Below, piece after piece: positions 7,401 through 33,619 of a DNA stretch of 33,714 nucleotides. Source of the stretch: Capnocytophaga sp. GTDB lineage: Bacteria > Bacteroidota > Bacteroidia > Flavobacteriales > Flavobacteriaceae. Position 1 is the stretch's first letter. Each line of letters begins with the position of its first letter. Made by a program: the position numbers and the translations under genes. The DNA lies in the NCBI GenBank assembly GCA_030530525.1, contig JAUMUT010000022.1, positions 619 to 34,332 on the forward strand, given 5' to 3'. Below the pieces are notes generated by a model. It searched no databases, was not told where the DNA came from, and was given only the letters and a program-made list of their open reading frames with translations.

Positions 7401-10400
7401 TTTGCTCTTGTGTGATTTTATGGTCGTTTTGCAAAGAAGTATTTATAATAGTATCTGCTTTTTCAAACTGATATTTGAGTATTTTTTTACTAATATTTGG
7501 CTCATTTTGTATCGTATATTCTGATTTTTCTTTGGTTTCTTTCTTCTTAGTGTGTAATTGTACGATATTATCTGCCTTTTGTGCTATTTCTTCTAACTCT
7601 TCTTTGGTAAAAGTAGGCGTATTATTTAATTTTATCCTTAAATCTTGGTATTTTTCTATTTCTTTTAGAATAGATAATGATTTAAATTTAATATTTTCTA
7701 AGCTATTTAAAGCATTTTGTACTTTATCTTTGGTATTTACAAGTAATTCTTGCTTGTTTTTTTCTTCATTAGGAGTATTTTCAGGAAGTTCTGTTGTTTT
7801 TTCTGCATTTTTTGTACTTTCATTATGCTCTTTTAGCAAATCATCTAAGGTAAGTTGTATAACTTCTTGCGGATTAGCTGTTTTTATCGTATTTTTATGA
7901 TTTTCTAATCGAAAAAGAGCATCTTCTAATGAGCCTTTTACGTATTCTTCCTCTTTGCCAAAACGATTTTTTTTCATAATCGTATCTCCTAAGACATTAT
8001 TTGGGTTTTCTTTAAAGAAATTAGAAATATCTTGGTTTTGGGCTTGGCTATTTTTCTTTAAAATAATAATATCTGTACCTACATTGGTAGCCTTAAATGC
8101 TCCATTAGGCAAACGATAAGCCTCTGTAAGTTCAGCATTAGATAAGTTTTTTTGTCTGTTGAGCCAACCTGACGGAAGCACCATAGCAAGGGTTGCGCCC
8201 TCTTTCATCACATCAAGGGAGCGTTTTACAAAATAATCTTCGTACTTGGATAGCTTTGGCTCTTCGCCCAATCCAATATATTGCCCACGATGCGATCCAT
8301 ACGGCGGATTTCCGATGACTAAATCATAGTGGTTGGCTTCATATTCTTTTTTAAATCCGTTATCCGAAATGAACTCCGTTTCAAAGGAACGTAAATTAAT
8401 TGTAGCGTTTGGGTGTAAGATTTTAGCTATTTTGGCAGTAGTTTCATTAATTTCAAAGGCAGAAATAGTAGTTTTTATTCCTAAATTGGTAGTTGCGTGT
8501 AGGAAATTGCCTGTTCCTACACTTGGTTCTAAGATATTTACAGAAGATTTGCCTTTAAAATTATCTTGAATAAGATTTCGGACGGCATTTACCAATTTTT
8601 CATCGGTGTAATATTCATCTAATACGCCTCTTCCGTCTTTGGTAATACCTCCGCTTTTGTATTGATTGATTATTTCCTTAATTGTATTGGATAACCCATC
8701 TACACCAGTTTCTTCAATACCTTGCTTAATCTGAATGGTGTTGTCTTTATCTACAAAAGTCAGCAAATTAACCAATTTTTTTATTTGTTCATTGCTGACT
8801 TTGTTGCTTTTAGAGAGGTGAGCTACTTTGTTTACAAGGGTAATTCGTTCAAGTCCGCGTAAAGCTGTCGGGCTATTTCCTTCACTTCGGGGTTTGTCTC
8901 CGTTAGGAATATTTGGTTGAGAGCTTCCTCGTTCCCCTGTCTGTGTAGTTCGAATAACTCTTTCTTCTTGCGCCCTATCTCCTGTTGTCGGAGAGCTTCC
9001 TGTATCACTTCCTGAGGTAGTTCGGGTTCCGCTGGGCTGACTTCTATCTCCATCGCTTCCAACTCTTGGTAATATTTCTTGTTGTGTTCTAAGGTTTTCT
9101 CCCACTTGGGTTCTTCCTGTTCGTCCTCCCAAATCGCTCCGCTCTGCGCTTTCAAGTCCATTTCCAACATTGTTGCTGTCCATTGTTTGTCGGCTTGTGT
9201 TATTTCTTTCTTGTTGGGATTGGCTTGTTGGGTCAGTTTCTCGATGGTCTCGTTCAGGTGATTTTCCTCCCATTGGCTCAGGTGAGGATACTCGGCTGGA
9301 TTGATTTCTAACTTGTTCATTTTCTGCGCTTTTGTTGTAATTTTTTTCTGTAAAGATACGACTTTTTTCTGAAATAGAAATTAATTTATTGTTAAAATCA
9401 TAAAAATCGTAATAATTAAAAAGTTCTTTAATATCGTTAAAAGGAATGCCATTTACTCTGGATAAATACGGCGCATAATCATATTTTAAGCCAATAGAAT
9501 TTTCATTGAAATATTGGATAGTAAATTCATTTTGAGAGTCTTTATGAATGGCTTTCATTCCTTTTTGTAATACAATATCTTCTGAAATTTTATTTTTTTT
9601 ATTTTTTAAATAATCGTTTAAATCGTTATTTTCATTTTCAGAAATCCTATATTGTGCTCGCTGGTCTATGCTATTGGGTAAAGCGTTTTTTATCTTTTCG
9701 GTAGCCTCGTTGCCTGCTTTGTCTCCATCTAAAATTAGGTTTATTGTTCCTTGATAATTTTGGAATTGTTCAATAAATTTCCCTGTATTGGTAATAGAAT
9801 TAAGCACCACTAAGGAGCGGGTGTTTTTCCTGTTGTTTTCTTTACACAATTGCAAATAGGAAAGCATATCGGTCATTCCTTCAAACACAACTAATTCATT
9901 TTTAGTGCCTTGTATAAAAGTAATATCGCTATGCCCTACTTTGGCTTTATCATAGGGTTTATCCAAAAGGTTTTTCACTTCATACCCTCCCGATTGGTTT
10001 TTTAGCCCTATTCCAAAATAATTTTTCCCAGAGGTTTTATTGTGGTAGTGAACTTGTTGGGTGTATTGCTGTAGAATATCTTTAGAAATACCTCTATCTT
10101 CAAAATAGCTAATAAGTTTCTCATTATTAGGTACTATTGCCATAGTAAAGATATTCTTAGGTTCTGTGATGGAGGAAGAGGAAAGAGAAGAACTTTGTTG
10201 TAATTTTTCTTCTGCATCAGCTACATAGGATTTAGAAAAATCTTTTAGAAAATCAACGGCTTCCCGCCAATTTTTATTTTCCATTTCCATTACGGCTTTG
10301 ATAATCCTCCCTCCATTTCCTGCTTTGAAATCATAATATTTTTCATTAGTAACAGAGAATTTATTAGCATCGGTAAGGAAATAATAGTCGTGTCCTGTTT

Positions 10401-10500
10401 TTTTATGAAAACGTACTTTTCCTCTGCGTTCTAAGTCTTGAAAATAATCTAAAACAGAAACGCTATTGCTTAATTTTTCTATTTCTTCGGGTGTCATCAT
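4408..10500 (-). CDS. Giant primase-like / N6-DNA methylase / SNF2-type helicase fusion
   Basis: A 2030-residue DNA-processing protein. Order seen: an N-terminal CHC2-like fold without the zinc Cys set (about 1-95); a Toprim domain (about 110-290) with the catalytic Glu in VVFEGMTDM near 207 and LILDGDKAG near 260; a Ser/Arg/Gly/Thr-rich disordered linker (about 394-557); an N6-adenine methylase with LEPSVGTGNF near 655 and NPPYG near 730; a coiled linker (about 880-1150); and an SF2/SNF2-like helicase with HEVGFGKT near 1293, DEVH near 1443, LLSATPF near 1500 and EGRMWRQGN near 1772. The tail is coiled and basic. Methylase-helicase giants of this kind are typical of Bacteroidetes plasmids and conjugative elements, with presumed roles in replication, establishment or antirestriction. 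No nuclease domain is visible. It ends a leftward block, one base after a lipoprotein gene. Confidence 0.9.
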   Translation of the reverse strand: MMTPEEIEKLSNSVSVLDYFQDLERRGKVRFHKKTGHDYYFLTDANKFSVTNEKYYDFKAGNGGRIIKAVMEMENKNWREAVDFLKDFSKSYVADAEEKLQQSSSLSSSSITEPKNIFTMAIVPNNEKLISYFEDRGISKDILQQYTQQVHYHNKTSGKNYFGIGLKNQSGGYEVKNLLDKPYDKAKVGHSDITFIQGTKNELVVFEGMTDMLSYLQLCKENNRKNTRSLVVLNSITNTGKFIEQFQNYQGTINLILDGDKAGNEATEKIKNALPNSIDQRAQYRISENENNDLNDYLKNKKNKISEDIVLQKGMKAIHKDSQNEFTIQYFNENSIGLKYDYAPYLSRVNGIPFNDIKELFNYYDFYDFNNKLISISEKSRIFTEKNYNKSAENEQVRNQSSRVSSPEPMGGKSPERDHRETDPTSQSQQERNNTSRQTMDSNNVGNGLESAERSDLGGRTGRTQVGENLRTQQEILPRVGSDGDRSQPSGTRTTSGSDTGSSPTTGDRAQEERVIRTTQTGERGSSQPNIPNGDKPRSEGNSPTALRGLERITLVNKVAHLSKSNKVSNEQIKKLVNLLTFVDKDNTIQIKQGIEETGVDGLSNTIKEIINQYKSGGITKDGRGVLDEYYTDEKLVNAVRNLIQDNFKGKSSVNILEPSVGTGNFLHATTNLGIKTTISAFEINETTAKIAKILHPNATINLRSFETEFISDNGFKKEYEANHYDLVIGNPPYGSHRGQYIGLGEEPKLSKYEDYFVKRSLDVMKEGATLAMVLPSGWLNRQKNLSNAELTEAYRLPNGAFKATNVGTDIIILKKNSQAQNQDISNFFKENPNNVLGDTIMKKNRFGKEEEYVKGSLEDALFRLENHKNTIKTANPQEVIQLTLDDLLKEHNESTKNAEKTTELPENTPNEEKNKQELLVNTKDKVQNALNSLENIKFKSLSILKEIEKYQDLRIKLNNTPTFTKEELEEIAQKADNIVQLHTKKKETKEKSEYTIQNEPNISKKILKYQFEKADTIINTSLQNDHKITQEQINAFAHTHYDGKMYFTDSEDLNKSIEKYSNIYKGDKIHDFYYAEGDIYEKLAQLDIDFKGKLDDEKQKAQYEKQKALLESVLPPKKQLEDIVISPNHEFVHNFSLGEKEKEVYNNRLGVYVKEMVEHSLADMFKEFVYKLPSKALEPSSSWEVNRFVDNEMVTGSDKERNALIRERRKEVANNLFNKFLQEELTPELKERFVNEFNRKYNNIHIPDYSQFPLFSKINQNFKGKPLQLTEVQKAGIGRLTTKGVGLLAHEVGFGKTLSGVLSMHEAMERGNAKRPLIVVPNDNILKQWVETIYETIPNAKVNVLGNLGKDYDLSKFDNKDGEITLVTYEGFNNIGFSKAITNQLAEKFSYINDRDINGLDSPSQREIEKDIANRGKIEGKMKRGKVYDWEDFDFDHLTFDEVHNANHIVDKVRLEDKRFASDFRSQNQRASKLGLNTWVASQYIQDKYNGRNVTLLSATPFTNKPLEYYSILSLIANERLEKSGYFNVNNFFETFMEADNDMEIDAKGDVKFKTNVRRFKNNALFQQLLSEFIDIKGEEDNPNLVRPNRINKEYKIEQNDLTKIMYAKLDFLLDETKDGGILTHILNARKIAISPYLYDEYDGEKPTAKEFVENSPKLKTTMDLIRQNKADKPEAGQIIYSELGVSEFPKLKEYLVNEVGYKENEVGIITGATSKAQRLEIQEKFNEGKIKIVIGSEAIQEGMNLQENTSDMYLLTLPYNFSSLRQIEGRMWRQGNKWENVHMNYMLTNDSIDVFMLQKLQTKQSRYMEAMKKGASVVDVSDVDTQEMKTAIITNPETRAKIEIELQKKKLENEKTRHIADLGFISRKYEDYNEALALYLTTKKSYEGIKEWAEKDDYWKSRLPYSEKEVENAKKKLDNVAEKLAQKGVNALEFKNQQERTQAIIDDLEKHIKEELPVIEKNLIEQYKTEKEERLKNSTPDFVSQRAQENKTFYKLRPKEDKKAVEVAENKTLQDVAQEEKKSFARKR
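8832..9320 (-). CDS. Overlapping reading frame nested in the linker of the giant fusion
   Basis: A 162-residue frame on the same strand as the fusion, shifted +1, covering fusion residues about 394-557. The nested protein has ordinary globular composition: Glu/Lys/Leu/Gln helices with Trp at several positions and a Pro-His-Leu-Ser-Gln-Trp motif near the start. The fusion itself is a low-complexity Ser/Arg/Gly/Thr/Gln linker there. My counts give 29/60 GC at 8881-8940 and 32/60 at 9001-9060 against 17/60 at 7501-7560, as expected when two frames are constrained. The ATG is preceded by an A-rich stretch without a Shine-Dalgarno, which is common in Bacteroidetes. The product is unrecognised. Alternatives are a chance open frame or a relic of an ancestral frame. 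Confidence 0.55.
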   Translation of the reverse strand: MNKLEINPAEYPHLSQWEENHLNETIEKLTQQANPNKKEITQADKQWTATMLEMDLKAQSGAIWEDEQEEPKWEKTLEHNKKYYQELEAMEIEVSPAEPELPQEVIQEALRQQEIGRKKKELFELHRQGNEEALNQIFLTETNPEVKEIARQLYADLNELPL

Positions 10501-16328: not shown

Positions 16329-18329
16329 CTAGGCAATTTTAGCGGTTATATCTTGTATCATTAATTCTACTTCTTTATTGATACGGCGGAAATTAGCCAT
16401 AAGAATATCATTTTTCCTATCCACTCCGTTATTGTCTTTAAAAGAGTAATATGCAGGAGTTTTTACATAATTTTCTTCTTCGAATTTAATAGCTTTCATA
16501 TCTAAATTAATTTTTCCTGAAATGGCAGAGGTTTTAAATTCTTCGGTTGCATTGTCGTTTCCTTGTACTACCATTCCAGCCATTTCTCCTGTTCTTAGCC
16601 CAGCGAGTTTTCCTGCGGGTATCATTACGTCCATTTTTTCGCTAATGGTCATATTTGTTCCTTGATTGGAAATGGATTCAGAATAGCTTTTTTGTTTGAT
16701 TTTTCCGAATAATTTTTCTAACCAATCCAACGTACTTTTGTCTCGGACTGCACCAGAGAGAATATTTCCCATAATAGCAGAAATGGTTTCTGCAACTTCT
16801 TTTTTATAGAATTGTTTCAATTGTGGTATTTCCTGTAATCCAAGCACTACCGCAACTCTATTACTTCTTGCCGTTGCCACCAAATTATCTACTTTATGAA
16901 TGTAGATAGTAGGGAACTCATCGGCAATTAGCCCGCTGTAAAGATTTCCTTTATCATTTATTTGACTAATCACTCTATTGAGTACTGCCGAATAAAGAGC
17001 GGAGTTAATATCTTGCGTACGAGGGTTGGAAGCTAATATCAGAATAGAAGGGTCTTCTTTGTCTGATATTTTCAGTTGCACCTCATCGCCACTGAATACC
17101 CAGAAACTTTCTTTGGTTGCAAGGCGTGAAAGGAAAATTTTAATCGTTCCTATTTGTCCTTCCAATTGGTCAAAGGCTTTGTTCTCATAAGCGGATTTGA
17201 AAGGCGACATTAGAGAGCTAAGTTCTTCATTAGTGAATAGAGTATCAAAAATTTCCTGATAACTTCTATTCATAAAGGCGAGTATATGCGGTAGGTCAGA
17301 ATATTTTCCATTTTCGTAAGTAGCGTGGAAATAGATAGTAGAGGCAAGAAAATTCACCGCAGATTGGGTAAAAAAAGCCTCTGAGCCTCCTCCGCCTGAA
17401 CCTCCTCCTTTTTGCAAAGCACTTACCATTGACTCTGCCATCTCTTGGGCTTGGGCAAGGGTGTTAATGTATTCTTTTTTAAAAGGATTTACTCGTTTGG
17501 AATATTCTACTTCATCAAGGTTGATTACGTGAAATTGATGTTTATAATTGGGGTCTGTTTTTTTCTTTTGCAAATAATGAAAATAAGCAATTTCGGCTAA
17601 ACTTGGAAACTTAAAATCATAGATACAAAGACAAAAACCTTTATTTACTAACTGCCTGATAGCAGGATTAATAACTCCAAACGATTTCCCTGAGCCAGGC
17701 ACTCCAATAACCATTGTTCCTCGGAAAGGGTCAATATTTATCCAGCCGTTGTGTGTGGCTTTTTTATAGCGAAATTGGTAAGGAATATTTACAGAAGTAG
17801 GCGTATTGATAAGTTCTTTATTTTGGTCAAAACTCTCTTCTTCGGTATTCCAGCGGTCTTTTCCCATTTTAGTTTGTACGATTTTAGAAATATTGTCCGC
17901 TCCCATTTGTGTAATGATCGCACCTGCAAAAGAAAGCAACACATATCCTAACTGATAAGCATTCAAATAAGGAACAATTGGTGGCAAATCCCGATTTTCT
18001 GCACCTACAACAAGAACTAATGAACCAATAATCATCAATAAACCTATGGAAATGGGTAAAAATATTTCTTTGGTTGCATTCAGGTCTTGTTTTTTCTTAG
18101 CTTTTGTTCCTATGGCTACTAAGGCAATAAGAACAAGTGTTGCAAACTTGGCATTAATAGGAGGATAGAATATTCCCATTTTTCCAAAACTTTGTAAAAT
18201 ATTGGATAACACAGGGATTTCTGCTTTTTGGAAAAATAATATCAAACAATCCAAAGCAACTATTCCATACACCATTTTTTGGAAAAAATCGTATATTTTT
18301 ATTTGATGTTGTTGCTCTTGCATACTCAT
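16329..18329 (-). CDS. mobC: Type IV coupling protein (VirD4/TraD-type ATPase)
   Basis: A 666-residue inner-membrane ATPase that brings the relaxase-DNA complex to the channel. The N-terminal 145 residues contain about four hydrophobic segments. The P-loop GVPGSGKS is near 209 and the Walker B LIADEFP near 465. A glycine-rich stretch near 305-315 precedes SEAFFTQSAVNF. The C-terminal part is a hydrophilic all-alpha region. The symbol follows CTnDOT usage, where MobC is the coupling protein. The gene is separated from traN by a hairpin terminator (18376-18436), so it may start a second transcript with the peptidase and topB. The 114 bases upstream hold no obvious TAnnTTTG box. Confidence 0.92.
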   Translation of the reverse strand: MSMQEQQHQIKIYDFFQKMVYGIVALDCLILFFQKAEIPVLSNILQSFGKMGIFYPPINAKFATLVLIALVAIGTKAKKKQDLNATKEIFLPISIGLLMIIGSLVLVVGAENRDLPPIVPYLNAYQLGYVLLSFAGAIITQMGADNISKIVQTKMGKDRWNTEEESFDQNKELINTPTSVNIPYQFRYKKATHNGWINIDPFRGTMVIGVPGSGKSFGVINPAIRQLVNKGFCLCIYDFKFPSLAEIAYFHYLQKKKTDPNYKHQFHVINLDEVEYSKRVNPFKKEYINTLAQAQEMAESMVSALQKGGGSGGGGSEAFFTQSAVNFLASTIYFHATYENGKYSDLPHILAFMNRSYQEIFDTLFTNEELSSLMSPFKSAYENKAFDQLEGQIGTIKIFLSRLATKESFWVFSGDEVQLKISDKEDPSILILASNPRTQDINSALYSAVLNRVISQINDKGNLYSGLIADEFPTIYIHKVDNLVATARSNRVAVVLGLQEIPQLKQFYKKEVAETISAIMGNILSGAVRDKSTLDWLEKLFGKIKQKSYSESISNQGTNMTISEKMDVMIPAGKLAGLRTGEMAGMVVQGNDNATEEFKTSAISGKINLDMKAIKFEEENYVKTPAYYSFKDNNGVDRKNDILMANFRRINKEVELMIQDITAKIA

Positions 18330-18443: not shown

Positions 18444-19316
18444 TTAAAAAGTATCGGCGTTGAGAACGTCGGAATAATTAACAATCATATCAATAGTTCG
18501 TCCGGAAATTTGCTCTTCTATAAGTCGTATTTTCAATACTTTACTATTAGGAAAGGTAAATTTCTCAAAGACAAAAATATTTCGGTAAGAATGACGAATT
18601 TTGGTCTGATCATTAAAACTATACAAAGGGTTTAGTTCTATACTTTGATTATTGGTAGCCTTGTAAATCTTTTTATCATCAATATTGAATTTAATTCCCT
18701 CAATATCACAAGATAAATTAGTTTTATTTTCAATAGAAATATCTAAGAAAATATAATCGTCCATCACATACACATTATTGAGTTGCATCGTGAGCCTAAG
18801 ATTTTCTTTTTTACGAATAGGCTTTTCTACCTTTTTATTTTGTATTTGCAGTGCAAATCTTTTTAGTTCGTAGTTAGAATATTTCATTTTAGGATATTCT
18901 AATGGTTGCATTTGCGATGCTTCTATATGGAGATTGGTATTTATCCAAGTAGATTTTTTATCTTGCCAAATAGCACGATATTGCGCCATAAAAGACTGCC
19001 CAACAATGGTAATAATTCCTATATCTTGCCCAATGAAAAAAGGCAGTTTTTGGGTTGCATCTGGTGTATTGGTCGTCTCTTTATCTATTTGCACCTTTAC
19101 CCGAGCAATATTCTCTGAGGGGAGGTCGCCTACCAAATGATAGGTAGATAAATCTACAAACTGAATAGGCTCAGGAGCAATAATGTGAATATTGACATCT
19201 TCTCCCATAAAAATAATAGGGAGGTCTTCTACTTCCACTTTGGGCTTTAATTCTTGGGCATTGCCTTGCAGAAAACAAAAGAAGGCAAATAAGCTGGTAA
19301 TGTATTTTTTTATCAT
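18444..19316 (-). CDS. traN: Conjugative transfer protein TraN (VirB9-like)
   Basis: Periplasmic channel component of the Bacteroidetes TraN family (DUF4138), functionally like VirB9. I chose the start at 19316, not the in-frame ATG at 19334, because it clears the traM stop and puts a normal signal peptide (Lys-Lys, hydrophobic core, Gly-Asn-Ala-Gln cleavage) at the N-terminus, giving 290 residues. The mature protein is strand-rich: about residues 28-130 form the first beta domain and 165-285 a second, with the conserved-type NNVYVMDDYIFLDISIEN stretch near 190. It lies four bases after traM and is the last pore gene before the hairpin. Confidence 0.85.
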   Translation of the reverse strand: MIKKYITSLFAFFCFLQGNAQELKPKVEVEDLPIIFMGEDVNIHIIAPEPIQFVDLSTYHLVGDLPSENIARVKVQIDKETTNTPDATQKLPFFIGQDIGIITIVGQSFMAQYRAIWQDKKSTWINTNLHIEASQMQPLEYPKMKYSNYELKRFALQIQNKKVEKPIRKKENLRLTMQLNNVYVMDDYIFLDISIENKTNLSCDIEGIKFNIDDKKIYKATNNQSIELNPLYSFNDQTKIRHSYRNIFVFEKFTFPNSKVLKIRLIEEQISGRTIDMIVNYSDVLNADTF

Positions 19317-19320
19317 TGGA

Positions 19321-20508
19321 TTATTCGTTTTCACTTTTATTTTTGTTCAATTCTTTTTCATTTATTAAATAAATATATGTGCTATATTTTAGGGTTACTT
19401 TATTTTTACGAATGATAGCGATAACGGCATCGGAAGCGGAGCGGAACAGGCTGGAGGCAAGGCTGGTAAAGAATCCTTGTCCGCTTTCTACATTCATACC
19501 TTGTACGGAGTTTGCCCCTAATTCACGAGTCATTTCACGGAAAGCACTTGCAGGAACGTACAATCCTCTCATTCCGTCCATATCAAAAACGGATAAGTTG
19601 ATAGGATAAATTTGATTATCTACCATTACGGAGATAATATTCAGCTCTACTCGTTGCATTGAAAATCCTGAGATTTCAGCATAGAGAAAAGAGCCTTTTT
19701 TTACAGCCATTTTTTTCTTCCCTATAAAAATATCTTCTAACAGACGGATACGAATACGGCTTCCGAGATATCCTTTTATATTTTCATCAATAACGGCTTT
19801 GATGGTGTTATTGGGCTTTTCCTTAGAAATATGGTTGAATTGCCCAATGGTATTGGATTTATGAACGTCCATAGTAGTATTAAGAAATTCTTCCATTTTT
19901 TCTTTATTTTCTCTAAGTCGTTTTTGTGCCATCATTTCTCGTTGGTATTGTGGGTCTTTGGTTTTTTCTAACGAGTCCATAAAAAGCATTTGCTCTCGGA
20001 GGCTTTTAACAGGGTCAAACTCTGATTTTGGTTCGGTTTCTGGCTCTTGTTGTTGCGAGTCATTGAGCATTTTTATAATTTCTTTGGAACGCTCATAGTC
20101 TTTGTCTTCTTTATTATTTTGTGGGGTGTAGTAGTTATCTCTTTCGTTGTTTGCCACTTGGTTATTTCTTGCGCGGTCTCGTTCGTAGGCTAAGGAATCC
20201 AAATAGCGTTTTTGCGCATCATCTAAATTATCGGAATAGGTAAAAAGGCTATCGCTTTCTTGGTCTATTTCTTGTAACATTGTACGATTATTCTTATCGT
20301 TTTGGAATAATTTATCATAGGCTTCGTTTTTATTTAAGATAGAGGCATCTACTTTTCCCAAATCGGTATTCATTTCTTTTTGTACGACCTCTTGTTTTTC
20401 TTCTCCACCAAAAATACTAATAGACTGATAGCCAACGAATAGGATAAAAGGCAGAGCGATAAGCGGTAGAATGTATTTGGGTTGCTTAAAGTTAATTTTC
20501 TTTTCCAT
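19321..20508 (-). CDS. traM: Conjugative transfer protein TraM (VirB10-like)
   Basis: A 395-residue protein bridging inner and outer membranes. It has a short cytoplasmic N-terminus, one membrane segment (about 12-32) and a long Asp/Glu/Gln/Lys-rich periplasmic linker (about 35-225). The C-terminal beta-barrel domain (about 240-390) has strands containing GSRIRIRLLEDI, KKGSFLYAEISGF and GMRGLYVPASAF, as expected for TraM/VirB10. It overlaps traL by 17 bases and precedes traN by four, giving the canonical traJ-K-L-M-N order. Confidence 0.9.
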   Translation of the reverse strand: MEKKINFKQPKYILPLIALPFILFVGYQSISIFGGEEKQEVVQKEMNTDLGKVDASILNKNEAYDKLFQNDKNNRTMLQEIDQESDSLFTYSDNLDDAQKRYLDSLAYERDRARNNQVANNERDNYYTPQNNKEDKDYERSKEIIKMLNDSQQQEPETEPKSEFDPVKSLREQMLFMDSLEKTKDPQYQREMMAQKRLRENKEKMEEFLNTTMDVHKSNTIGQFNHISKEKPNNTIKAVIDENIKGYLGSRIRIRLLEDIFIGKKKMAVKKGSFLYAEISGFSMQRVELNIISVMVDNQIYPINLSVFDMDGMRGLYVPASAFREMTRELGANSVQGMNVESGQGFFTSLASSLFRSASDAVIAIIRKNKVTLKYSTYIYLINEKELNKNKSENE

Positions 20509-21478: not shown

Positions 21479-22759
21479 TTATTTTCTTAAATTACTGTTT
21501 AGGATACCTGTTAGGCTTCTTGACATAGCATTTCCTATGGCATTATTCATTGCTCTACCTACTCTTCCGCCTGCGTTTATGATGGATTTTCCTCCGCTTA
21601 TAGCACCTTTCCCTCCTGCGACTATTCCACCTGCGACTTTTCCTGCGTTGCCTTTTGCTTTGGTCATTATTCCTGCTCCTCCTGCTTGTACCACTGCATC
21701 GGCTATGGAAGGAGTCATTAGCACTCCTATTCCTGTTACAAAATACCCTACCACAGGAAAGATAACAGAGTTTAAAAAACCATTGGCTGTGGTATAATTT
21801 AGTAATAAAGCCTCATTTATTAATTTCCCATTGGCATCTACAATTAAAGAAAGACGATTAATATCCATTTGGTAACCTCCCATTATAATTTGTTGTCCTA
21901 TATTAATAATCGTATAAGCAACGAAAGTATAAAGATTGATATTGATGAATTTGGCAAGCCAATTATAAAAAGAACTTTCAAAACCTGGAATAAGAGCCAT
22001 TCCAACGGCAATGGGACCTAAAACAATAAGCACATATGCCCATACTTTTTGGATAAAGAATGTAAAATACACCGCTATTCTAAGGAAGGCTAAGGCTCCT
22101 AATTCAAAAGCTTCTCCAATAAGTTTTTGCAATTTATAATTAAGCCTATCCACTACCTCAATCATAGGAGCTGTGAGTTTATCTACCTGATCTCCAATAG
22201 CTTCTCCTATTTTACCATCCCCTACCTTAGACCAAAAACCTTCTTGTTTTGCATTCAATTCTGCGTTTAATTTTATAGTAGCATCTAACACTTGCATTTG
22301 CTTAGTATAGCGAAGAGTTCGTAGGGCATCTGCTTCTTTTTCTATTTCTTTAAAAACGCTTTCCGATGGAGTTGCTAATAACATAAAAGGATATTGTACC
22401 ATTCGTACAAAAGGCACCCAATTGATAAGAATTAGCCCTATAATTATTGGTTTTAGCATTGGTTCAATACTCCATTCGGCTTCGCCGTTTTGCATTCTAA
22501 ATCCAATTATTCCAAAATGAATAAGCGCACCGAAACCTGCAATAGTACGTCCTAAAATAGAGGCTTCTCTTGCCCTTCCTTCTATTTGTGTGCTAATGTT
22601 TGCAAAGGCTTCCATAAACCAACTCTCCAAACTACCATCGCCTTTGGTGTAGGCAAGTAAATTTTTAGCGTGTTCAGGTGTTACGGTGTCTCCCCACATT
22701 ATAAAGGGAAATAATATCGCTCCGATACAGCATAGAATAGTTATATATTTCGTATTCAT
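21479..22759 (-). CDS. traJ: Conjugative transfer protein TraJ (VirB6/TrbL-like)
   Basis: A 426-residue polytopic inner-membrane channel protein. It has an N-terminal hydrophobic segment (about 7-23), then several membrane segments (about 70-88, 105-130, 215-260, 270-290 and 325-350). The last 75 residues are Gly/Ala/Lys-rich with little complexity, typical of TraJ/TrbL tails that face the cytoplasm. The region between 130 and 215 is charged and helical. It lies five bases before the gene for an exported 270-residue protein and 19 bases upstream of traK. Confidence 0.88.
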   Translation of the reverse strand: MNTKYITILCCIGAILFPFIMWGDTVTPEHAKNLLAYTKGDGSLESWFMEAFANISTQIEGRAREASILGRTIAGFGALIHFGIIGFRMQNGEAEWSIEPMLKPIIIGLILINWVPFVRMVQYPFMLLATPSESVFKEIEKEADALRTLRYTKQMQVLDATIKLNAELNAKQEGFWSKVGDGKIGEAIGDQVDKLTAPMIEVVDRLNYKLQKLIGEAFELGALAFLRIAVYFTFFIQKVWAYVLIVLGPIAVGMALIPGFESSFYNWLAKFININLYTFVAYTIINIGQQIIMGGYQMDINRLSLIVDANGKLINEALLLNYTTANGFLNSVIFPVVGYFVTGIGVLMTPSIADAVVQAGGAGIMTKAKGNAGKVAGGIVAGGKGAISGGKSIINAGGRVGRAMNNAIGNAMSRSLTGILNSNLRK

Positions 22760-25617: not shown

Positions 25618-28600
25618 TTAATTTAAATGGGTTTGTATTATTTCCTCCAAACTTTTTTCTTGATCTTTTACATAATCATCTAATTCTCTAAGAACATTTC
25701 TGCCTTTGTGCTGTTCTTTAAATTTTTTATAGAAATTCATCACTTCTTTGTCCAATGGTTTTTTGTAGAGATTGGTAAGAGTGAAAATCGTTTTCATATC
25801 TTCCTTATATTTTTTGAGGTCTTCTACAAAAATTTCCAATGCTTTATCATAACTCCCTAAGGCATTGACATAATAAAGAATTGCCGATTTTTCGGGCTTT
25901 TCTGTGGTATAGGTAAGATATTGTTCTAAGGAAACTTCATTGCCATATACCTCGCCTTTTGCGCCTCGTTTTAGGTAAAATTCTTTAAAACGTCCTCTAC
26001 CAGATTTGTTATTTAAATTATTGATAGTGAATATTTTATTCTGTTCTACTTTATTTAAAGATAGTAAAGAGGCAATGCGGTCAAAATTATCTTTAAACTT
26101 TGTTTGGTCTAATAACAAAAAAGTATCCGAGTTATTAATAATAGAGTCTTTCACTACGGCATTACCAATAATATCATCTAACTCTTGGGTTACTACCACC
26201 GCTTCTCCCCAAAACTTACGTACGGTTTTATAAAGGTAGAGAATATAACCTCCCATCAGTTTGGAAGCGATAGCTTTCCACGCTTCTTCTATAATAAGAG
26301 CCTTTCGCCTATCAGAACGCAAACGCATTTTTTGGATAAACGTATCCATAATAATAAGCGTTACTATTGGGAATAGTTTTGGATTATCTTTCACGTTGTC
26401 TATCTCAAAAACGATGAAAGGCTCGTAAAATAAAGAACTATCCGCATTTTCATTGAGCGTTGTGCCATAGCGTCCGCCTTTGTAAAAATCTTTTAAAACA
26501 AAGAGAAATGTTCGTAAATTAAACTCTTGTTCGGTTATTTTATGATGCTTATTATTGAGAAACACAGGCAAAAACTTTTCACAATATTCATAAAAACTAT
26601 TAAACGACAAGGCAGGAACGTGATAGTCTTTTTCTACTTTTTTAACATATTTTATTACTTCTCTTCGCAGAGGGTCGCCTGTGAGTTCTTCTTCTTCCAA
26701 CGGAGCTACTTCTTTGTAGGTGGTAAGAAGAGCGGAGCTTTCGTTGTATATTTTTCGTTTTTCTTCATCGGAAAGCGTTTCATAGGCTTCGTATATTTTA
26801 TAGAAATAATCAGGATTATAATCTTGCTTATTTTGGTGTTTATCAGGGTGATATTCTTGTAATAATCTTCTCCCTTTTTCTTTTATTTCTTTGGAAGAAG
26901 CATTAAACGAAATACCTAAAATATCATAAAAAGTTTGTTCTTTTCCTTGTCCTAAATCTTCATAATGAATGTTATATTTATTGAGATATAAAAGCAATTC
27001 TTCGTTATTTTTTTCTTCGTACCATTGTGTATCTTTTTTATAAAATTGATGATAATACGAAATTAGAGCATTATCCAAAATAGATTTTTGAGAAGGCGTC
27101 ATTGTGGCATCAGGACCTTGCCAAATCAAAAATATAAGATTGGTTAAAAATTCTGTTTTTTCAATATTAAACTCCTTTTCACTTACGATAAAAGGGTTCA
27201 TTGTGATAGGCTTTTCTTCGGTATATTGGATATAACGTCCTCCTTTATAGGCACAAGTACCTGAATAGGAATCCCCTGTATCCACAATTACTACATCATA
27301 ATTATAAGTCAAATATTGTTCTACAATGTTATTCATCAGGAACGATTTTCCGCTCCCAGAGGGACCCAAAACGAATTTATTTCGGTTGTTAATACGTCCT
27401 GTTTGGTACGGCAAATCCGAAGTATCTACTTTTAGTGGCACTCCTTGTCTGTCGGCAAAACGCAGATAGAAATTAGATTTTTCATTTATCGGGTAACTTT
27501 CTTTAAAAAAAAAACACAAGCCCGCTTCGCTCGTTGTAGTAAATAAATCGTAGTCTTTCAGTTCCACAGCATTCCCAAGGATAGCAGAGCGAAATAATTC
27601 CATTTGATTATATGTATTCTTGGAAATAATGATCCCTTTGGTAAATAATTTACTCTCAATAGTGGATTGTGTTTTTTCCATTTTTTCCAACGTATCACAA
27701 GCAAATACTAAGGAAAAATGAGCATCTACGATAAGTTGTCCATTAACGGCTATTTCGTGCAAAAGGTCTTCAATTTCTTCGGCTACAATGGCATTAGAAG
27801 GGGCGTTTTTAGCAACTCCTTCGTGTTTTTTCTTTTTCTTATCCAACTCTCGTTGGCGTTGCACTTGGTTAGGAATGGACAATACCTGATTGTAAATAAT
27901 AGTTTGGTAGTCTTCCAATTCATTTAGGAACGCAAAATTATCTACTGCCAAATCTGCTACGGCATCATTTCCTCCTAACGAAGCATAGGTTTCTATCTCA
28001 GTAGGCAAATCAATATTTTCTACATCTACAAAAGAAATAGTTTTGACGAAAGATTTTCCTATACGCAAATATTCATTGGTAGATTTAATATTGTCAAACA
28101 CAGGAGTATCTGCAAAGTGCATAGCGAGTGTCCCCCCGATATAATATTCCCAATCTTTTTCAAAAAGATATTCGGGTTCGCATTCACTCTGTTCTAAGAG
28201 CATATATACTTTTTCGCACTTATCCCGAAGTTCTTTATAGTTTTTTTCTGAAAATTTATACTTATTTTTCTTTTTGTCTAAAAGGTCTGTAAAAACTAAT
28301 AGCGTGTCAATAGTTTTAAAAATTCGCCCATTGAAGTGGTCGGAATATTTTTGTTGTAAAAAGGTTTTTTCCTTCTCGGCTACATATTTTTTCTTAGCGA
28401 AAATATCTATCTTTTGAACGATATGCCCTTCGCCAACAATAGCAACTACCTGATTTAGAATAGTATGAAATTGTTCATAGCGGTCAGGGTCAGCAGAGTA
28501 TTGTTCTACGATATTTTTTATACGAATACCAATAACAGGATTGCCATATGTACCAATGAGTGCATCAAACTTCCAGCCGTGTTCTGCTCCGTTGTCGTAC

Positions 28601-28635
28601 CCTATAAAAGGATGTTCAAAAGATTTTGTTTTCAT
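25618..28635 (-). CDS. traG: TraG (VirB4-type ATPase) with an inserted J-domain
   Basis: A 1005-residue conjugation ATPase, longer than the roughly 800-850 I expect for Bacteroidetes TraG. The N-terminal domain (about 1-400) is VirB4-like. The P-loop GPSGSGKS is near 424-431 and the Walker B LIIEEAWKAI near 778. Between them, about residues 567-634 form a J-domain: YDILGI, an EIKEKGRRLLQEY helix, the HPD triad at 596-598, then FYKIYEAYETLSDEEKRKIY. J-domains stimulate Hsp70 (DnaK). The flanking TraG sequence resumes with FNSFYEYC, so it looks like a clean insertion. TraG powers pore and pilus assembly at the inner membrane. It follows the small coiled-coil gene by 12 bases. Confidence 0.93.
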   Translation of the reverse strand: MKTKSFEHPFIGYDNGAEHGWKFDALIGTYGNPVIGIRIKNIVEQYSADPDRYEQFHTILNQVVAIVGEGHIVQKIDIFAKKKYVAEKEKTFLQQKYSDHFNGRIFKTIDTLLVFTDLLDKKKNKYKFSEKNYKELRDKCEKVYMLLEQSECEPEYLFEKDWEYYIGGTLAMHFADTPVFDNIKSTNEYLRIGKSFVKTISFVDVENIDLPTEIETYASLGGNDAVADLAVDNFAFLNELEDYQTIIYNQVLSIPNQVQRQRELDKKKKKHEGVAKNAPSNAIVAEEIEDLLHEIAVNGQLIVDAHFSLVFACDTLEKMEKTQSTIESKLFTKGIIISKNTYNQMELFRSAILGNAVELKDYDLFTTTSEAGLCFFFKESYPINEKSNFYLRFADRQGVPLKVDTSDLPYQTGRINNRNKFVLGPSGSGKSFLMNNIVEQYLTYNYDVVIVDTGDSYSGTCAYKGGRYIQYTEEKPITMNPFIVSEKEFNIEKTEFLTNLIFLIWQGPDATMTPSQKSILDNALISYYHQFYKKDTQWYEEKNNEELLLYLNKYNIHYEDLGQGKEQTFYDILGISFNASSKEIKEKGRRLLQEYHPDKHQNKQDYNPDYFYKIYEAYETLSDEEKRKIYNESSALLTTYKEVAPLEEEELTGDPLRREVIKYVKKVEKDYHVPALSFNSFYEYCEKFLPVFLNNKHHKITEQEFNLRTFLFVLKDFYKGGRYGTTLNENADSSLFYEPFIVFEIDNVKDNPKLFPIVTLIIMDTFIQKMRLRSDRRKALIIEEAWKAIASKLMGGYILYLYKTVRKFWGEAVVVTQELDDIIGNAVVKDSIINNSDTFLLLDQTKFKDNFDRIASLLSLNKVEQNKIFTINNLNNKSGRGRFKEFYLKRGAKGEVYGNEVSLEQYLTYTTEKPEKSAILYYVNALGSYDKALEIFVEDLKKYKEDMKTIFTLTNLYKKPLDKEVMNFYKKFKEQHKGRNVLRELDDYVKDQEKSLEEIIQTHLN

Positions 28636-28647
28636 CTAATTTTTTCT

Positions 28648-28884
28648 TTAAGTGTTATAAGTGTTGTATAAAATTTGTTCTATTTGTAGTCCGTGTTCTT
28701 CTATTTCATTTACTATTTTTTTACTTTCTTCTTCTTGCAAAAAGTGTTTTGCTTGTTCTTCGGAAATACTTTTAAAAAGATTTTCTCGTTGCAAATAGAA
28801 TTTTTCCATTTGTGTTTTAGTTTGTAAGAGCAAATCTCGTAACGAAGTTAATTCTTTAAGGAATTCTTTTTTTTCTTTTTCCAT
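28648..28884 (-). CDS. Small coiled-coil protein between traF and traG
   Basis: A 78-residue, Glu/Lys/Gln-rich helical protein without signal or membrane segment. It overlaps the 3' end of traF by 37 bases and lies 12 bases before traG. Overlap and spacing argue for a translated gene. Its location between the VirB3-like and VirB4-like genes, which often interact or fuse, suggests a cytoplasmic adaptor for TraG. That is inference; no family is recognised. Confidence 0.55.
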   Translation of the reverse strand: MEKEKKEFLKELTSLRDLLLQTKTQMEKFYLQRENLFKSISEEQAKHFLQEEESKKIVNEIEEHGLQIEQILYNTYNT

Positions 28885-29156
28885 TGTTTTATTCTTTTAG
28901 GAAATATGTGTAATTCATCATTATTTTTTTGTTTATTATACAAGCCTTTGTGGGTTTGCATATGAAAAGTATACCAAACCCCACCTCCGCCAATACCTGC
29001 GCCTATCAAAGCTCCAATAAAACCTATAAAAGAAGGCAAAACCGCTAAGCCAAGAATACCCGTAAGTGCAGAACCTAAGGCATAATAAATATACTTATCT
29101 TTCAGTCCGAAAAAGACAAGGGGTTTTTTAAGCCCCTTGTAGAGATAGTGTCCCAT
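28848..29156 (-). CDS. traF: Conjugative transfer protein TraF (VirB3-like, DUF4133)
   Basis: A 102-residue inner-membrane protein with two closely spaced hydrophobic segments (about residues 20-38 and 40-62), the second Gly/Ile-rich. The N-terminal YKGLKKPLVFFGLKDKY block is typical of DUF4133 TraF proteins. The tail is basic. It lies two bases after traE and before traG, the normal order. A perfect 8-bp inverted repeat lies in codons 6-14 (29116-29140). Confidence 0.88.
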   Translation of the reverse strand: MGHYLYKGLKKPLVFFGLKDKYIYYALGSALTGILGLAVLPSFIGFIGALIGAGIGGGGVWYTFHMQTHKGLYNKQKNNDELHIFPKRIKQWKKKKKNSLKN

Positions 29157-29158
29157 AA

Positions 29159-29491
29159 TTAGGCGTTAAGATTAAAGAAAGCACTAATGAAAATTGGTAC
29201 TAAAATCAAGAACAGACAAGCACCTCCCCAGCCCAAGATTTCCTTGTTGATGTCTTGGTCGCCGTTTGTCCATTTATTGTAAATACGCAATCCCCCAATA
29301 AGCCCTACAATACCTCCTATCATCATTATGAGGTTTTTCAAAGGTCCCCAATATTGCTTTATACTATCCGCAGCTGCGGTAATAGCTCCTGAACCTTGCG
29401 CAAAACTTGGTGCTGAGACACAAATTCCGAAGAATAACAATAGCCATAGCCTTTGTCGGGTCTTCCTGTTTTCTAATGAAATATCTATCAT
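29159..29491 (-). CDS. traE: Conjugative transfer protein TraE (VirB2-like pilin, DUF4134)
   Basis: A 110-residue putative pilin or pore subunit. A basic 13-residue N-terminus and signal segment (about 14-32, ending Phe-Ala-Gln) lead into AADSIKQYWGPLKNLI and two membrane segments (about 50-69 and 88-106) separated by a short loop with NKWTNGDQDINKEI. This two-helix layout and the loop are characteristic of DUF4134 TraE. A 47-base A/T-rich gap separates it from the gene upstream, the longest gap in this part of the operon. Confidence 0.9.
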   Translation of the reverse strand: MIDISLENRKTRQRLWLLLFFGICVSAPSFAQGSGAITAAADSIKQYWGPLKNLIMMIGGIVGLIGGLRIYNKWTNGDQDINKEILGWGGACLFLILVPIFISAFFNLNA

Positions 29492-30012: not shown

Positions 30013-30302
30013 TAGTTATATATTTTTAAATGATTTCCTTTGTAGGTAATGAGTTGTGCTATCATTCGCCGAAATTCTCGCTTACGCAGGGCATATCGTA
30101 GCCCAATGTCTATGATTTCATTGAGGTTAATCCCGAACGCATTGAACTTCCCCAATTCCATTTGCAAATCATCGCTCATACTAATTACTCTATTGGTGCG
30201 ATTAGGTTCGTCTTCTTGCCAATCCAATAGAAAATTTTCTGAGTTGATTTCGTTGTACTTACGTTCTAATTGAATGTTAAAAGGCAGTTTGTTCGGTTTC
30301 AT
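30012..30302 (-). CDS. Small partner protein of the ParA-like ATPase
   Basis: A 96-residue soluble protein, mostly helical. An RTNRVISMSDDLQMELGKFNAF stretch is split here as about residues 35-56; it looks like a strand followed by a helix, as in ribbon-helix-helix proteins. An Arg-rich helix with RYALRKREFRR (about 68-80) follows. It overlaps the ParA-like gene by 26 bases, so it is probably its partner, as small DNA-binding proteins often are for ParA. No ParB-type gene is visible. Role inferred from context. Confidence 0.6.
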   Translation of the reverse strand: MKPNKLPFNIQLERKYNEINSENFLLDWQEDEPNRTNRVISMSDDLQMELGKFNAFGINLNEIIDIGLRYALRKREFRRMIAQLITYKGNHLKIYN

Positions 30303-30924
30303 CTTTTATGTATTCTATTAATTCTTCAAAAGTATCTTTTACCGCTTTTTTTTGTATATACGTAAGTCGGCGGGTAGAGATATTTTGCATCTCATTACGT
30401 TTATAAATGGGGGTCGGCAGGATTTTGCCATACATTTCCAATTGTCTATCGGTGTGTTCTTGGGTTTTATAATTATAGCCTTTATCCAATCGGGAACGTA
30501 AAAAAACAAGCTCGGCAGAGCCTTCTATTGCGCCTAACATACTGATAAACATCATTGTAGATTTGGAGGTAATTTCTGAATATTCAAAAGGAACAACCAA
30601 AATATTACTATACATTAGCACCTCCATATATTCTTCATTTATAGTGCCTCCCAAGTCAAATAGGAAAATTTCTTCACTCTCTTTCATTCGTGCATAGTCT
30701 TCCACCGAAAAGGCACTACTATTTTCTATGGCTTTTACTTGGTATAACGGAGGATCTTGGTTTAATTCTTCATCTTCTTCCCACTTGGAAAGAAATGACC
30801 TTTGAAAGTCAAAATCATAAATATTTACCTTTTTATCTTTGGTTAAAACAAGATAATTAGCAAAGGCTATTGCTAAGGTAGTTTTACCTACGCCTCCTTT
30901 TTGTTGTGCAAATGTGATTATCAT
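30277..30924 (-). CDS. traA: TraA, ParA-family ATPase of the transfer operon
   Basis: A 215-residue ParA/MinD-type ATPase. The deviant Walker A KGGVGKTT is at residues 9-16, with a second conserved YDFDFQRS near 36-43 and a Walker B-like FLFDLGG near 88-94. Length and position, right after the relaxase and before the small tra genes, match TraA of Bacteroidetes conjugative elements. Such proteins may position the element or the transfer machinery in the cell, or regulate transfer. The start is one base after the relaxase stop. Confidence 0.88.
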   Translation of the reverse strand: MIITFAQQKGGVGKTTLAIAFANYLVLTKDKKVNIYDFDFQRSFLSKWEEDEELNQDPPLYQVKAIENSSAFSVEDYARMKESEEIFLFDLGGTINEEYMEVLMYSNILVVPFEYSEITSKSTMMFISMLGAIEGSAELVFLRSRLDKGYNYKTQEHTDRQLEMYGKILPTPIYKRNEMQNISTRRLTYIQKKAVKDTFEELIEYIKDETEQTAF

Positions 30925-30925
30925 T

Positions 30926-32440
30926 TTATTTTCGTTTTTTTCTTCGTTTTTTCAATTCTTCTTCGGTTGGGTCTTTTCCTACATAAGTGCCTTGTCCTAA
31001 GATTTTTACTGCCTTTTCCATTTGTTGGAAAGCCTCTGAAAGGGTAGAGCCATTATTGTGTTTGAAGTCAATTTTGCTTCCTGTTTCAGAGGCTGTATGA
31101 GACTTCCCAGTAAATACCTCATAAGCAGGATTACCTATGAGTTTTTCCAAAGCATACACCCTGTGATAACGCTGATGAACCGCGTAATATTCTCCTTCGT
31201 TATCTTGTAAAAGAGTAATAAATTCATTGTCAGGAACTTGCTCCTTTCCCTCTTGCATAAACTCTTTTACTTGAGTTTTTATCTGTTGAAAAACTTTACT
31301 TTTTTCATTATCTTTTTGCCTTTTATCAGAAAATAGCATAAAATCTTTTAAAGTAATTCCTTGATTAGCAAATAGTTGTATTGTTATTTCTTTCTCTTTG
31401 GAACTATCTAAATTATAGGCTTTTAAGCGTTCAAAATCTTCTTTATGTATGCTATCGGGAGTAAATTCAAAAATGTCGTTCATTTTCATTATTTCACTTC
31501 CTTTATATACTTTTTGATGAATATTATCTATCAACGTATAGCCAAAAGGTTGTTTATTATCTTTAAAATGAAACACTATATCTATCCCGAAAATATCGTG
31601 TAATTTCTTTTGCAATTCGCTCTGATATTCTATTTTCGGAGCGATAGCAACTCGGTCGGCATTTGGATTGCGCTCATAAAGTCCGTTTTCTTCTCTATCA
31701 TCTATCACTTTAAAGACTTTATTGGAATATATTTGCTTATATTTTTCAATAAATTGCTTTATTTGATATATTCTCTTGTCTTTTTTCTCTTTTTTATGGT
31801 TTTCATAAGGAATTTCATTTAAATGAATGGACTTTTGTACTATTCCATTATGCAAAATCTCTATTTCTTTCGGATTATCTTCCTTTAAACGTACTTTAAA
31901 ACCATTTTTAGTGAGTAAATTCTCCATTTGTTGGAAATTACTAACTTTATATTGTAATAATTTTTCTATTTCTGCTGTTCTATCGATGCCAAAATGTTTT
32001 TCTAATACATTGGCAAGGGCTTTTTGTGATTTTAGTTTTTCAAAATTATCTTTTATCTTCTTACCTGTATCTTTATCTACCCGAGTAGAAACAATATGCA
32101 CGTGATTATTTTCTGTATCTTTATGAAATACAATCAAATACGGCTGTTTTTCATAGCCCATCTCTTGCATAAAACTTTCGGCTATTTCGGTGAGTTGCTC
32201 CTTGCTATGCTCTTGAAATTTGGTAGAAATCACGGCGTGAAACTGCGGATTTTTTACCTTCCCTGTGTTGGAAATCGCTTTTAGATAATTTCTAACTTCT
32301 TCTTGGGAACTTTCTTCGTTGAGGAATGTTGGAAAATTATTCATTTTCATTAGTTCTCCTCGCTCAGAATTTATCTTCTTTTCGTTGTATTTCACCCCGT
32401 GAAAATCTACACTTGCTGAGCTTAGTAGCTTAACAATCAT
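30926..32440 (-). CDS. mobB: Relaxase / mobilization nuclease (PF03432-type)
   Basis: A 504-residue relaxase that nicks oriT and stays bound to the 5' end. The N-terminal domain (about 1-180) has the likely catalytic Tyr at residue 18 (GVKYN), the QFHAVIS block near 67-73 and the metal-binding HKDTENNHVHI motif with His at 106, 113 and 115. The remainder is helical, of unknown role, and ends in a very basic Lys/Arg tail. It overlaps the accessory gene by 11 bases and precedes traA by one. The symbol follows Bacteroides mobA/mobB usage. All catalytic residues appear intact. Confidence 0.93.
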   Translation of the reverse strand: MIVKLLSSASVDFHGVKYNEKKINSERGELMKMNNFPTFLNEESSQEEVRNYLKAISNTGKVKNPQFHAVISTKFQEHSKEQLTEIAESFMQEMGYEKQPYLIVFHKDTENNHVHIVSTRVDKDTGKKIKDNFEKLKSQKALANVLEKHFGIDRTAEIEKLLQYKVSNFQQMENLLTKNGFKVRLKEDNPKEIEILHNGIVQKSIHLNEIPYENHKKEKKDKRIYQIKQFIEKYKQIYSNKVFKVIDDREENGLYERNPNADRVAIAPKIEYQSELQKKLHDIFGIDIVFHFKDNKQPFGYTLIDNIHQKVYKGSEIMKMNDIFEFTPDSIHKEDFERLKAYNLDSSKEKEITIQLFANQGITLKDFMLFSDKRQKDNEKSKVFQQIKTQVKEFMQEGKEQVPDNEFITLLQDNEGEYYAVHQRYHRVYALEKLIGNPAYEVFTGKSHTASETGSKIDFKHNNGSTLSEAFQQMEKAVKILGQGTYVGKDPTEEELKKRRKKRK

Positions 32441-33077: not shown

Positions 33078-33314
33078 ATGGAAACACTTACTATCCGACC
33101 TCCCAAAGGCGTTTCTTTGGATAAGGCTAAATTGGCATTAGAAAATTTAAATTTTGAAATCATTCCTAACACAAAAGATAGCGTACGAGTTTCTCCAGAG
33201 GTTTTAAATATTATTGATGAAGCCTTAGAAGAGGAGAAAAAAGGCATTTTTATAAGCAATGAAGCAGTATTACAAGAAGCAATAGAGTTTATCCAAAAAA
33301 CGGCTACCAAATGA
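33078..33314 (+). CDS. Antitoxin of a ParE/RelE-type module (DUF2683-like)
   Basis: A 78-residue acidic protein with an N-terminal strand block (ETLTIRPPKG), a central mixed region and C-terminal Glu/Ile helices that should wrap the toxin. The overall form resembles DUF2683-type antitoxins that precede ParE/RelE toxins in Bacteroidetes; this is from memory. It overlaps the toxin start by four bases (ATGA), the usual coupling that keeps antitoxin in excess. A TAnnTTTG box lies upstream. The reverse-strand frame over it is a shadow. Confidence 0.82.
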   Translation: METLTIRPPKGVSLDKAKLALENLNFEIIPNTKDSVRVSPEVLNIIDEALEEEKKGIFISNEAVLQEAIEFIQKTATK

Positions 33315-33619
33315 AAGAATTAACAATTGTATGGTTACCTAAAGCTAAAAAACAATTATTTCATATTTTAGCTTTTTGGATAGAAAAAAATAAATCTGCT
33401 ACGTATAGCTTAAAGATAGAAGAAGAAATAAGAAAAATGACCAATCACCTTTCTGTTAATCCTAAAATAGGGCAAAAGGTAGAATATAGAGAAGAGGTTC
33501 GTAGAATAATTATCCTTCGTCATTTTTCTATATTTTATAAAATAATAGAAGAGTTTGAAGAAATTCGTATTATAGCATTTTGGGATAATAGAAACGACCC
33601 TAATAAATTAAAAATATAA
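33311..33619 (+). CDS. ParE/RelE-superfamily toxin
   Basis: A 102-residue basic protein with the ParE/RelE fold signature: an N-terminal strand with WLPKAKKQL, a helix with LAFWIEKN, a Pro-Lys-Ile-Gly-Gln turn (about 57-61), then strands EVRRIIILRHFSIFYKI and EIRIIAFWDNRNDP. The final Trp-Asp-x-Arg-x-Asp-Pro tail is typical of ParE-type members in Bacteroidetes. ParE acts on gyrase and RelE on ribosome-bound mRNA; which applies cannot be told from sequence alone. The pair would stabilise the element. Confidence 0.88.
   Translation: MKELTIVWLPKAKKQLFHILAFWIEKNKSATYSLKIEEEIRKMTNHLSVNPKIGQKVEYREEVRRIIILRHFSIFYKIIEEFEEIRIIAFWDNRNDPNKLKI

Follow-up and report, generated by a model that had tools for sequence, protein, structure and literature searches.

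We analysed a 33,714-nucleotide stretch of Capnocytophaga sp. DNA (the window; assembly GCA_030530525.1, contig JAUMUT010000022.1, positions 619 to 34,332) whose traG gene encodes a VirB4-class conjugation ATPase with a J-domain inside it. The gene lies in an operon of conjugation genes (Table 1), and its product matches the family models TIGR03783 (486 bits against a cut-off of 261.6, the match being split into two stretches) and PF19044 (expectation value (E) 2.1e-131, 438.8 bits). Together with a Walker A motif, GPSGSGKS, and a Walker B core, LIIEE, these matches and the operon context place the protein in the VirB4/TraG family. The initial annotation had placed a J-domain, with its histidine-proline-aspartate (HPD) tripeptide at residues 596-598, inside the ATPase half of TraG, and the profile match, the predicted fold and the alignments described below all confirm this.

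Table 1. Features of traG and of the conjugation genes around it, in window coordinates
Feature	Coordinates	Strand	Evidence
TraG, VirB4-class conjugation ATPase with internal J-domain, 1005 amino acids (aa)	25618..28635	-	TIGR03783, PF19044, PF00226
N-terminal VirB4-type domain, TraG residues 1-379	27499..28635	-	
Walker A GPSGSGKS, TraG residues 424-431	27343..27366	-	alignment of J-TraGs
Whole insertion, TraG residues 534-675 (142 aa): pre-J helix, J-domain, linker, post-J helix	26611..27036	-	alignments
J-domain, TraG residues 567-632	26740..26937	-	PF00226, PDB sequence matches, fold matches, model helices
HPD tripeptide, TraG residues 596-598	26842..26850	-	invariant in 80/80 proteins
Walker B core LIIEE, TraG residues 780-784	26284..26298	-	alignment
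DUF4133-like protein, upstream of TraG	28848..29156	-	PF13571 E 2.5e-5, 25.0 bits, just below 25.2 cut-off
DUF4134 protein	29159..29491	-	PF13572 E 6.5e-28
ParA/VirC1-like ATPase	30277..30924	-	PF01656 and PF07015 over cut-off
MobA/VirD2-like relaxase	30926..32440	-	PF03432 E 3.4e-24
VirB6/TrbL-like membrane protein	21479..22759	-	PF04610 E 3.5e-7, 30.7 bits, cut-off 25.9
TraM (conjugative transposon)	19321..20508	-	PF12508 E 8.3e-36
DUF4138 (TraN-type) protein	18444..19334	-	PF13595 E 1.4e-45
Type IV coupling protein	16329..18329	-	PF10412, PF12696, PF02534 over cut-off

The profile search of TraG returned a full-domain match to PF00226 (DnaJ), in which TraG residues 569-631 align with profile positions 2-63 of 63 (E 2.5e-17, 63.1 bits against a cut-off of 27.8), and the HPD lies between helices II and III, as in other J-domains. 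The best PDB sequence match of this stretch is DNAJA1, with an E of 4.6e-12 for full TraG and 4.8e-14 for residues 560-640. The J-domain is therefore identified by three libraries as well as by its predicted fold, and the Pfam, family-model and PDB sequence matches rule out a chance resemblance or artefact. A fusion of traG with a dnaJ gene during assembly or annotation was also rejected, because 79 further loci show this architecture (with the window TraG, 75 proteins are distinct; some loci share one genome, so not all are independent) and because the J-domain groups apart from the sampled host J-domains, but for one row.

A first full-length model of TraG had a mean predicted local distance difference test score (pLDDT) of 59.6 and a poor ATPase core; a fragment was therefore folded with a more diverse alignment, giving a pLDDT of 81.5 and a predicted template modelling score of 0.72. 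The four-helix J fold that the initial annotation expected is present in the predicted model, with helices at fragment positions 190-194, 202-215, 229-243 and 245-259 (TraG residues 569-573, 581-594, 608-622 and 624-638), and the predicted domain lies 1.8 Å from the DnaK-bound J-domain 5nro_B, with 41% identity over 63 residues. Both TraG domains match the VirB4 fold when the models are compared with known structures, and the insertion region probably corresponds to the all-alpha domain of VirB4. In both models the J-domain is flanked by two low-confidence, predicted flexible linkers, an arrangement more in keeping with a tethered head than with a domain driven by ATP turnover; the initial annotation had suggested that the insertion could be linked to the ATPase cycle.

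The insertion site was examined in an alignment of 118 TraG proteins (frames of at least 740 aa with a BLASTP E of at most 1e-20; L042, L089, L099-L101 and L120 were left out). In 79 rows, among them L002, a truncated version of the window's traG, a J-domain is present and the flanking blocks are 141-150 residues apart. The 39 J-less rows hold either 0-9 residues at the site (35 rows, of which L098 is partial) or 108-113 unrelated residues (four rows, from Bacteroides, Butyricimonas and Mucilaginibacter plasmids). Among 12 IMG/VR loci, ten have inserts of other lengths without a J-domain at the same point (two contigs were fetched twice), one (L190) has no insert and one (L191) does not cover the site. 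The blocks on either side, a Tyr-Tyr helix upstream and 'LSFNSFYEY' downstream, remain aligned in most TraGs. Since J-bearing, coil-insert and short TraGs align at the same site, the J-domain is, on this comparison, a module gained at an insertion hot spot that lies in the ATPase half, flanked by two helices, where clade neighbours of the J-bearing proteins place other material; the alignments thus mark this part of VirB4 ATPases as prone to the insertion of modules. Inserts that are long, unrelated and probably helical occupy it in L142, L143, L144 and L146 (plasmids) and in L188 and L189 (IMG/VR). For the L096, L143 and L097 proteins, scans of viral contigs gave no relatives.

Such promiscuity of the site raises the prospect that it accepts any helical insertion and that the J-domain is mere filler without a DnaK function, as the unrelated plasmid inserts and the J-less IMG/VR inserts would allow. 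However, a spacer has no need of an HPD, and this tripeptide is intact in all 80 aligned J-TraGs (75 distinct; alignment A1, the window TraG plus 79 retained loci) even though its codons vary: among 78 sequences His is CAT or CAC (66/12), Pro is CCC, CCG, CCT or CCA (27/26/17/8) and Asp is GAT or GAC (57/21). We therefore consider the filler explanation improbable. Other J-domain columns are constrained as well, with Y570, L573, A617, Y618, L621, R627 and Y630 constant in 79/79 rows and R589, at DnaJ position 26, an Arg in 78 of 79. The ATPase motifs are also kept: Walker A reads GPSGSGKS in 79 of the 80 proteins and GSSGSGKS in one, and the Walker B residues E783 and E784 are invariant in A1. 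Synonymous sites were saturated, so that the ratio of nonsynonymous to synonymous substitution rates was not computable for four of seven segments, including the J-domain, and the proportions of nonsynonymous (pN) and synonymous (pS) differences were used. Over 1012 non-independent pairs that are 85-98.5% identical, the J segment has a pN of 0.105 and a pS of 0.781. On these sequence comparisons the J-domain is under purifying selection and is retained in every clade member examined.

A scan of genome contigs identified 115 TraG relatives, 80 of which were retained. Hosts of J-TraGs among these 80 include Capnocytophaga, Chryseobacterium, Epilithonimonas, Kaistella, Elizabethkingia, Empedobacter, Weeksella, Riemerella, Cloacibacterium and others, and the closest relatives among the matches listed are from Capnocytophaga sputigena (82%) and C. 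bilenii (81%). Because five of the six search patterns fall outside the insertion, the scan could have found a clade member lacking the J-domain. In an order-level sample of 395 genomes, 20 have a TraG match at an E of at most 1e-150, including the window's own genome; the other 19 all belong to one family, presumably Weeksellaceae to judge by the named records among the TraG relatives, and every full-length match spans the J region. In a phylum-level sample of 395 genomes, 40 have a TraG match at an E of at most 1e-25, again with the own genome included, and the J form appears only in that genome, G040 and G333. The other 37 have J-less forms only, in keeping with the initial annotation's statement that VirB4 ATPases normally carry no J-domain, which thus holds within the TraG family. 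Judged by these counts, the J form is a clade feature, common in the Weeksellaceae-type family and rare outside it. A search of phage DNA with the J segment gave no match. Among PLSDB plasmids there were 105 records matching a J segment of 102 residues. In the 60 matches listed, the annotation reads TraG for two and DnaJ or J-domain protein for most of the rest; some are unannotated.

The genome from which the window derives (2.29 Mb in 76 contigs) has one full-length DnaK (Hsp70) plus one short weak match, and two further places matching PF00226 at an E of at most 0.001, one in a 382 aa frame (DnaJ) and one in a 249 aa frame. We compared 44 J-domains, 19 from TraG and 25 from eight genomes, in a tree of uncertain root built on 68 columns, a number that the program warns is too few. 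The TraG J-domains cluster away from 24 of the 25 host J-domains, all but L178, a row on a long branch that we read as HscB-like; because it falls among the TraG J-domains, these form one group in only 4% of bootstrap trees. With few supporting columns, the tree is compatible with a single gain of the J-domain. A separate J-domain protein, in frames of 246-263 aa and distant in the tree from both DnaJ and TraG, occurs in the own genome (L003, contig C48) and in relatives (L181, L184).

Several observations weigh against a DnaK-recruiting role. Evolution has been faster in the J segment, with a mean identity between members of 68%, than in the ATPase core, with 91-95% (the insert flanks are at 56 and 65%), and the core pN of 0.029-0.035 is below that of the J segment. 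Residue 588, which corresponds to Tyr25 of DnaJ and thus, like position 26, to a helix II residue that contacts DnaK, is Gly in 51 of 79 rows, including the window TraG, and Phe in 26, Ala in one and Tyr in one. In DnaJ chimeras, substitutions at positions 25 and 26 and H33Q disrupt J-domain function, one position-26 change doing so only partly, and a position-25 substitution inactivated a chimera, according to PMC1906734. By analogy with that inactivation, affinity for DnaK may be low in the Gly588 sub-clade. The same glycine would suit a domain that has kept the J fold while binding an element or host protein other than DnaK. However, both the HPD and a basic residue at position 26 have been retained, and position 25 is Tyr or Phe in L141, L069 and L114, three rows that the J tree (of uncertain root) places apart from the main TraG cluster, so that we find a different partner improbable.

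Furthermore, J-less TraG genes are present in other genomes of the same genus; therefore, related machines seem to manage without the J-domain. Another alternative is a self-directed role, in which the J-domain would aid the folding or solubility of the large TraG polypeptide and take no part in the assembled machine. All the sequence data are compatible with that role, and the protein is about 1000 aa long and presumably multimeric, but the J-less rows include six TraGs of 804-848 aa and four of 944-948 aa, and we regard it as rather unlikely.

We favor the interpretation, probable on balance, that TraG is a VirB4-class ATPase whose hypervariable loop in the ATPase half has gained a working, DnaK-recruiting J-domain. 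That the J-domain binds DnaK is its firmest part and likely; any one client can be proposed only tentatively. The initial annotation had suggested that TraG may recruit host DnaK to the secretion machine, with unfolding of relaxase or pilin, or channel assembly or disassembly, as possible purposes. Recruitment as such gains good indirect support, from sequence and modelling, in the HPD conserved across varying codons, the near-constant Arg at position 26, a fold like that of a DnaK-bound J-domain and the DnaK encoded in the genome. J-domains containing an HPD dock at the domain interface of Hsp70 and trigger ATP hydrolysis (PMC7289447). At the base of the channel, VirB4 ATPases are described as forming a hexamer of dimers whose C-terminal domains are cytoplasmic, and they have been proposed to change between assemblies (PMC12624023, PMC9259494, PMC8510550). 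By extension from Hsp40/Hsp70 biochemistry, the HPD loop and helix II of TraG would dock on ATP-bound host DnaK and trigger hydrolysis, after which DnaK would clamp a nearby client. If the VirB4 architecture in PMC8510550 applies, several J-heads would encircle the channel's cytoplasmic opening and raise the local concentration of DnaK. Our first guess for the client would be either the TraG ring or the membrane proteins that partner it, while the machine assembles or VirB4 switches between assemblies; the next candidates would be the relaxase, kept unfolded for export, and then pilin.

The genes around traG bear on this choice. The adjoining coupling protein has no PF00226 match at an E of at most 0.01, so the J feature belongs to the VirB4 part, and because it does, we place ring remodelling or assembly slightly above cargo unfolding, and pilin handling lower, although the evidence does not separate them. 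Sec63 and Pam18 act with Hsp70 at protein translocons, and TraG could do likewise, its J-domain bringing DnaK to the channel entrance so that the relaxase or other cargo is bound, held unfolded and aided in entry. The operon does encode a MobA/VirD2-type relaxase, Sec63 is among the weaker PDB sequence matches of TraG (E 0.0022), and the J-domain is on the half of the channel ATPase that in other systems is turned towards the cytoplasm (PMC8510550). However, the coupling protein, which presumably hands over the cargo, has no J-domain match here, and L142, a relative with a closely similar gene order, has no J-domain; a translocon-like role is therefore possible but doubtful. A closely similar annotated gene order accompanies the J form on Chryseobacterium plasmid NZ_CP139138.1 and Sphingobacterium faecium plasmid pWB8, and a TraG without a J-domain on Mucilaginibacter plasmid NZ_CP051683.1. 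Genes for an M23 peptidase and a topoisomerase are also found around traG. Elsewhere in the window are a 2030 aa protein with Toprim-like, Eco57I methylase-like and SNF2/Helicase_C parts (4408-10500, minus strand) and, near the window end, a ParE-type toxin-like protein (33311-33619, plus strand; PF05016 E 1.5e-8).

Two further features of traG itself were noted. The C-terminal tail, residues about 950-1005 (25618-25788), is longer in J-bearing TraGs than in J-less ones such as L115 and L117 and may accompany the J-domain. A run of nine Ts before AAA or AAG at 27505-27513 (TraG codons 375-377) is kept in J-TraG loci and is also carried by the Mucilaginibacter TraGs L142 and L144. In 78 genes its codons are TTT in 233 of 234 cases, compared with 3402 of 5123 Phe codons (66%) gene-wide, and of the 38 near-invariant Phe columns these three rank highest. 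Breaks at or close to the run occur in at least four copies of the gene: L042 has an in-frame stop at codon 378, and pieces begin or end there in G518, G526 and G557. The run could allow slippage and so give rise to the N-terminal domain by itself, or it could simply be a hot spot for mutation or sequencing error; intact copies are the rule.

We also considered VirB11, which docks at the base of VirB4 in other systems. The own genome has no VirB11-type ATPase match (PF00437) over the cut-off and two weak matches below it. Weak sub-cut-off matches occur in all of nine other genomes, and G317, whose TraG is J-less, also has one over the cut-off; none over it was found in the remaining eight, six with a J-TraG and two (G053 and G061) with a J-less one. 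Since the absence of VirB11 extends to J-less genomes, it does not track the J-domain, which is therefore not simply a clade-specific replacement for VirB11. A bolder extension of the DnaK-recruiting interpretation is that host DnaK serves as a working ATPase of the secretion machine, loaded by a ring of TraG J-heads at a VirB11-less channel base, its cycle powering, for example, the reset of the VirB4 ring between pilus building and DNA transfer, a step served elsewhere by VirB11 or by mass action. We consider this quite unlikely.

Searches of the open-licence literature gave no description of a fusion between a J-domain and TraG or VirB4, although it may be recorded elsewhere, for example in domain-architecture listings; where a DnaJ domain, a conjugative transposon and TraG are mentioned together, the available part of the text gives them as separate genes. 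The sequence data suggest that a mobile element harnesses the protein-folding machine of its host to build or run a DNA-export channel. If true, a DnaK docking domain in the central conjugation ATPase would tie transfer of the element directly to the host Hsp70 system, and a chaperone role in type IV secretion would become testable by a single point mutation, for which the natural J, coil-insert and short versions of TraG in similar operons offer a ready comparison. Because J-TraG elements occur across Weeksellaceae and Capnocytophaga, an HPD-dependent step would bear on gene spread there.

Finally, the window TraG can be set against known systems. It shares with the TraG family (TIGR03783/PF19044) the Walker A and B motifs, the VirB4 fold and an operon with DUF4133-like, DUF4134, VirB6-like, TraM, TraN-type and coupling proteins, but has a 142-residue J insertion where 35 of 39 J-less relatives hold 0-9 residues. 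Among the VirB4 proteins of known structure, TrwK/VirB4 of R388 and VirB4 of Thermoanaerobacter pseudethanolicus (PDB 7o41, 8rtd, 4ag6), TrwK lacks a comparable insert, since a profile of 13 J-less TraGs aligns with it across the insertion point without a large gap. The TraG J-domain resembles that of DnaJ-class proteins (DnaJ-DnaK, 5nro) in its HPD, fold and sequence identity; however, it lies inside an ATPase, has Gly at the Tyr25 position, and was the only DnaJ domain matched in the Pfam search of TraG. Sec63 of the Sec translocon and the SV40 large T antigen helicase likewise fuse a J-domain to a translocation or motor protein and thereby place Hsp70 where it is needed. Neither is known to be homologous to TraG as a whole protein, and TraG differs from both in being the conjugation ATPase of a bacterial mobile element.

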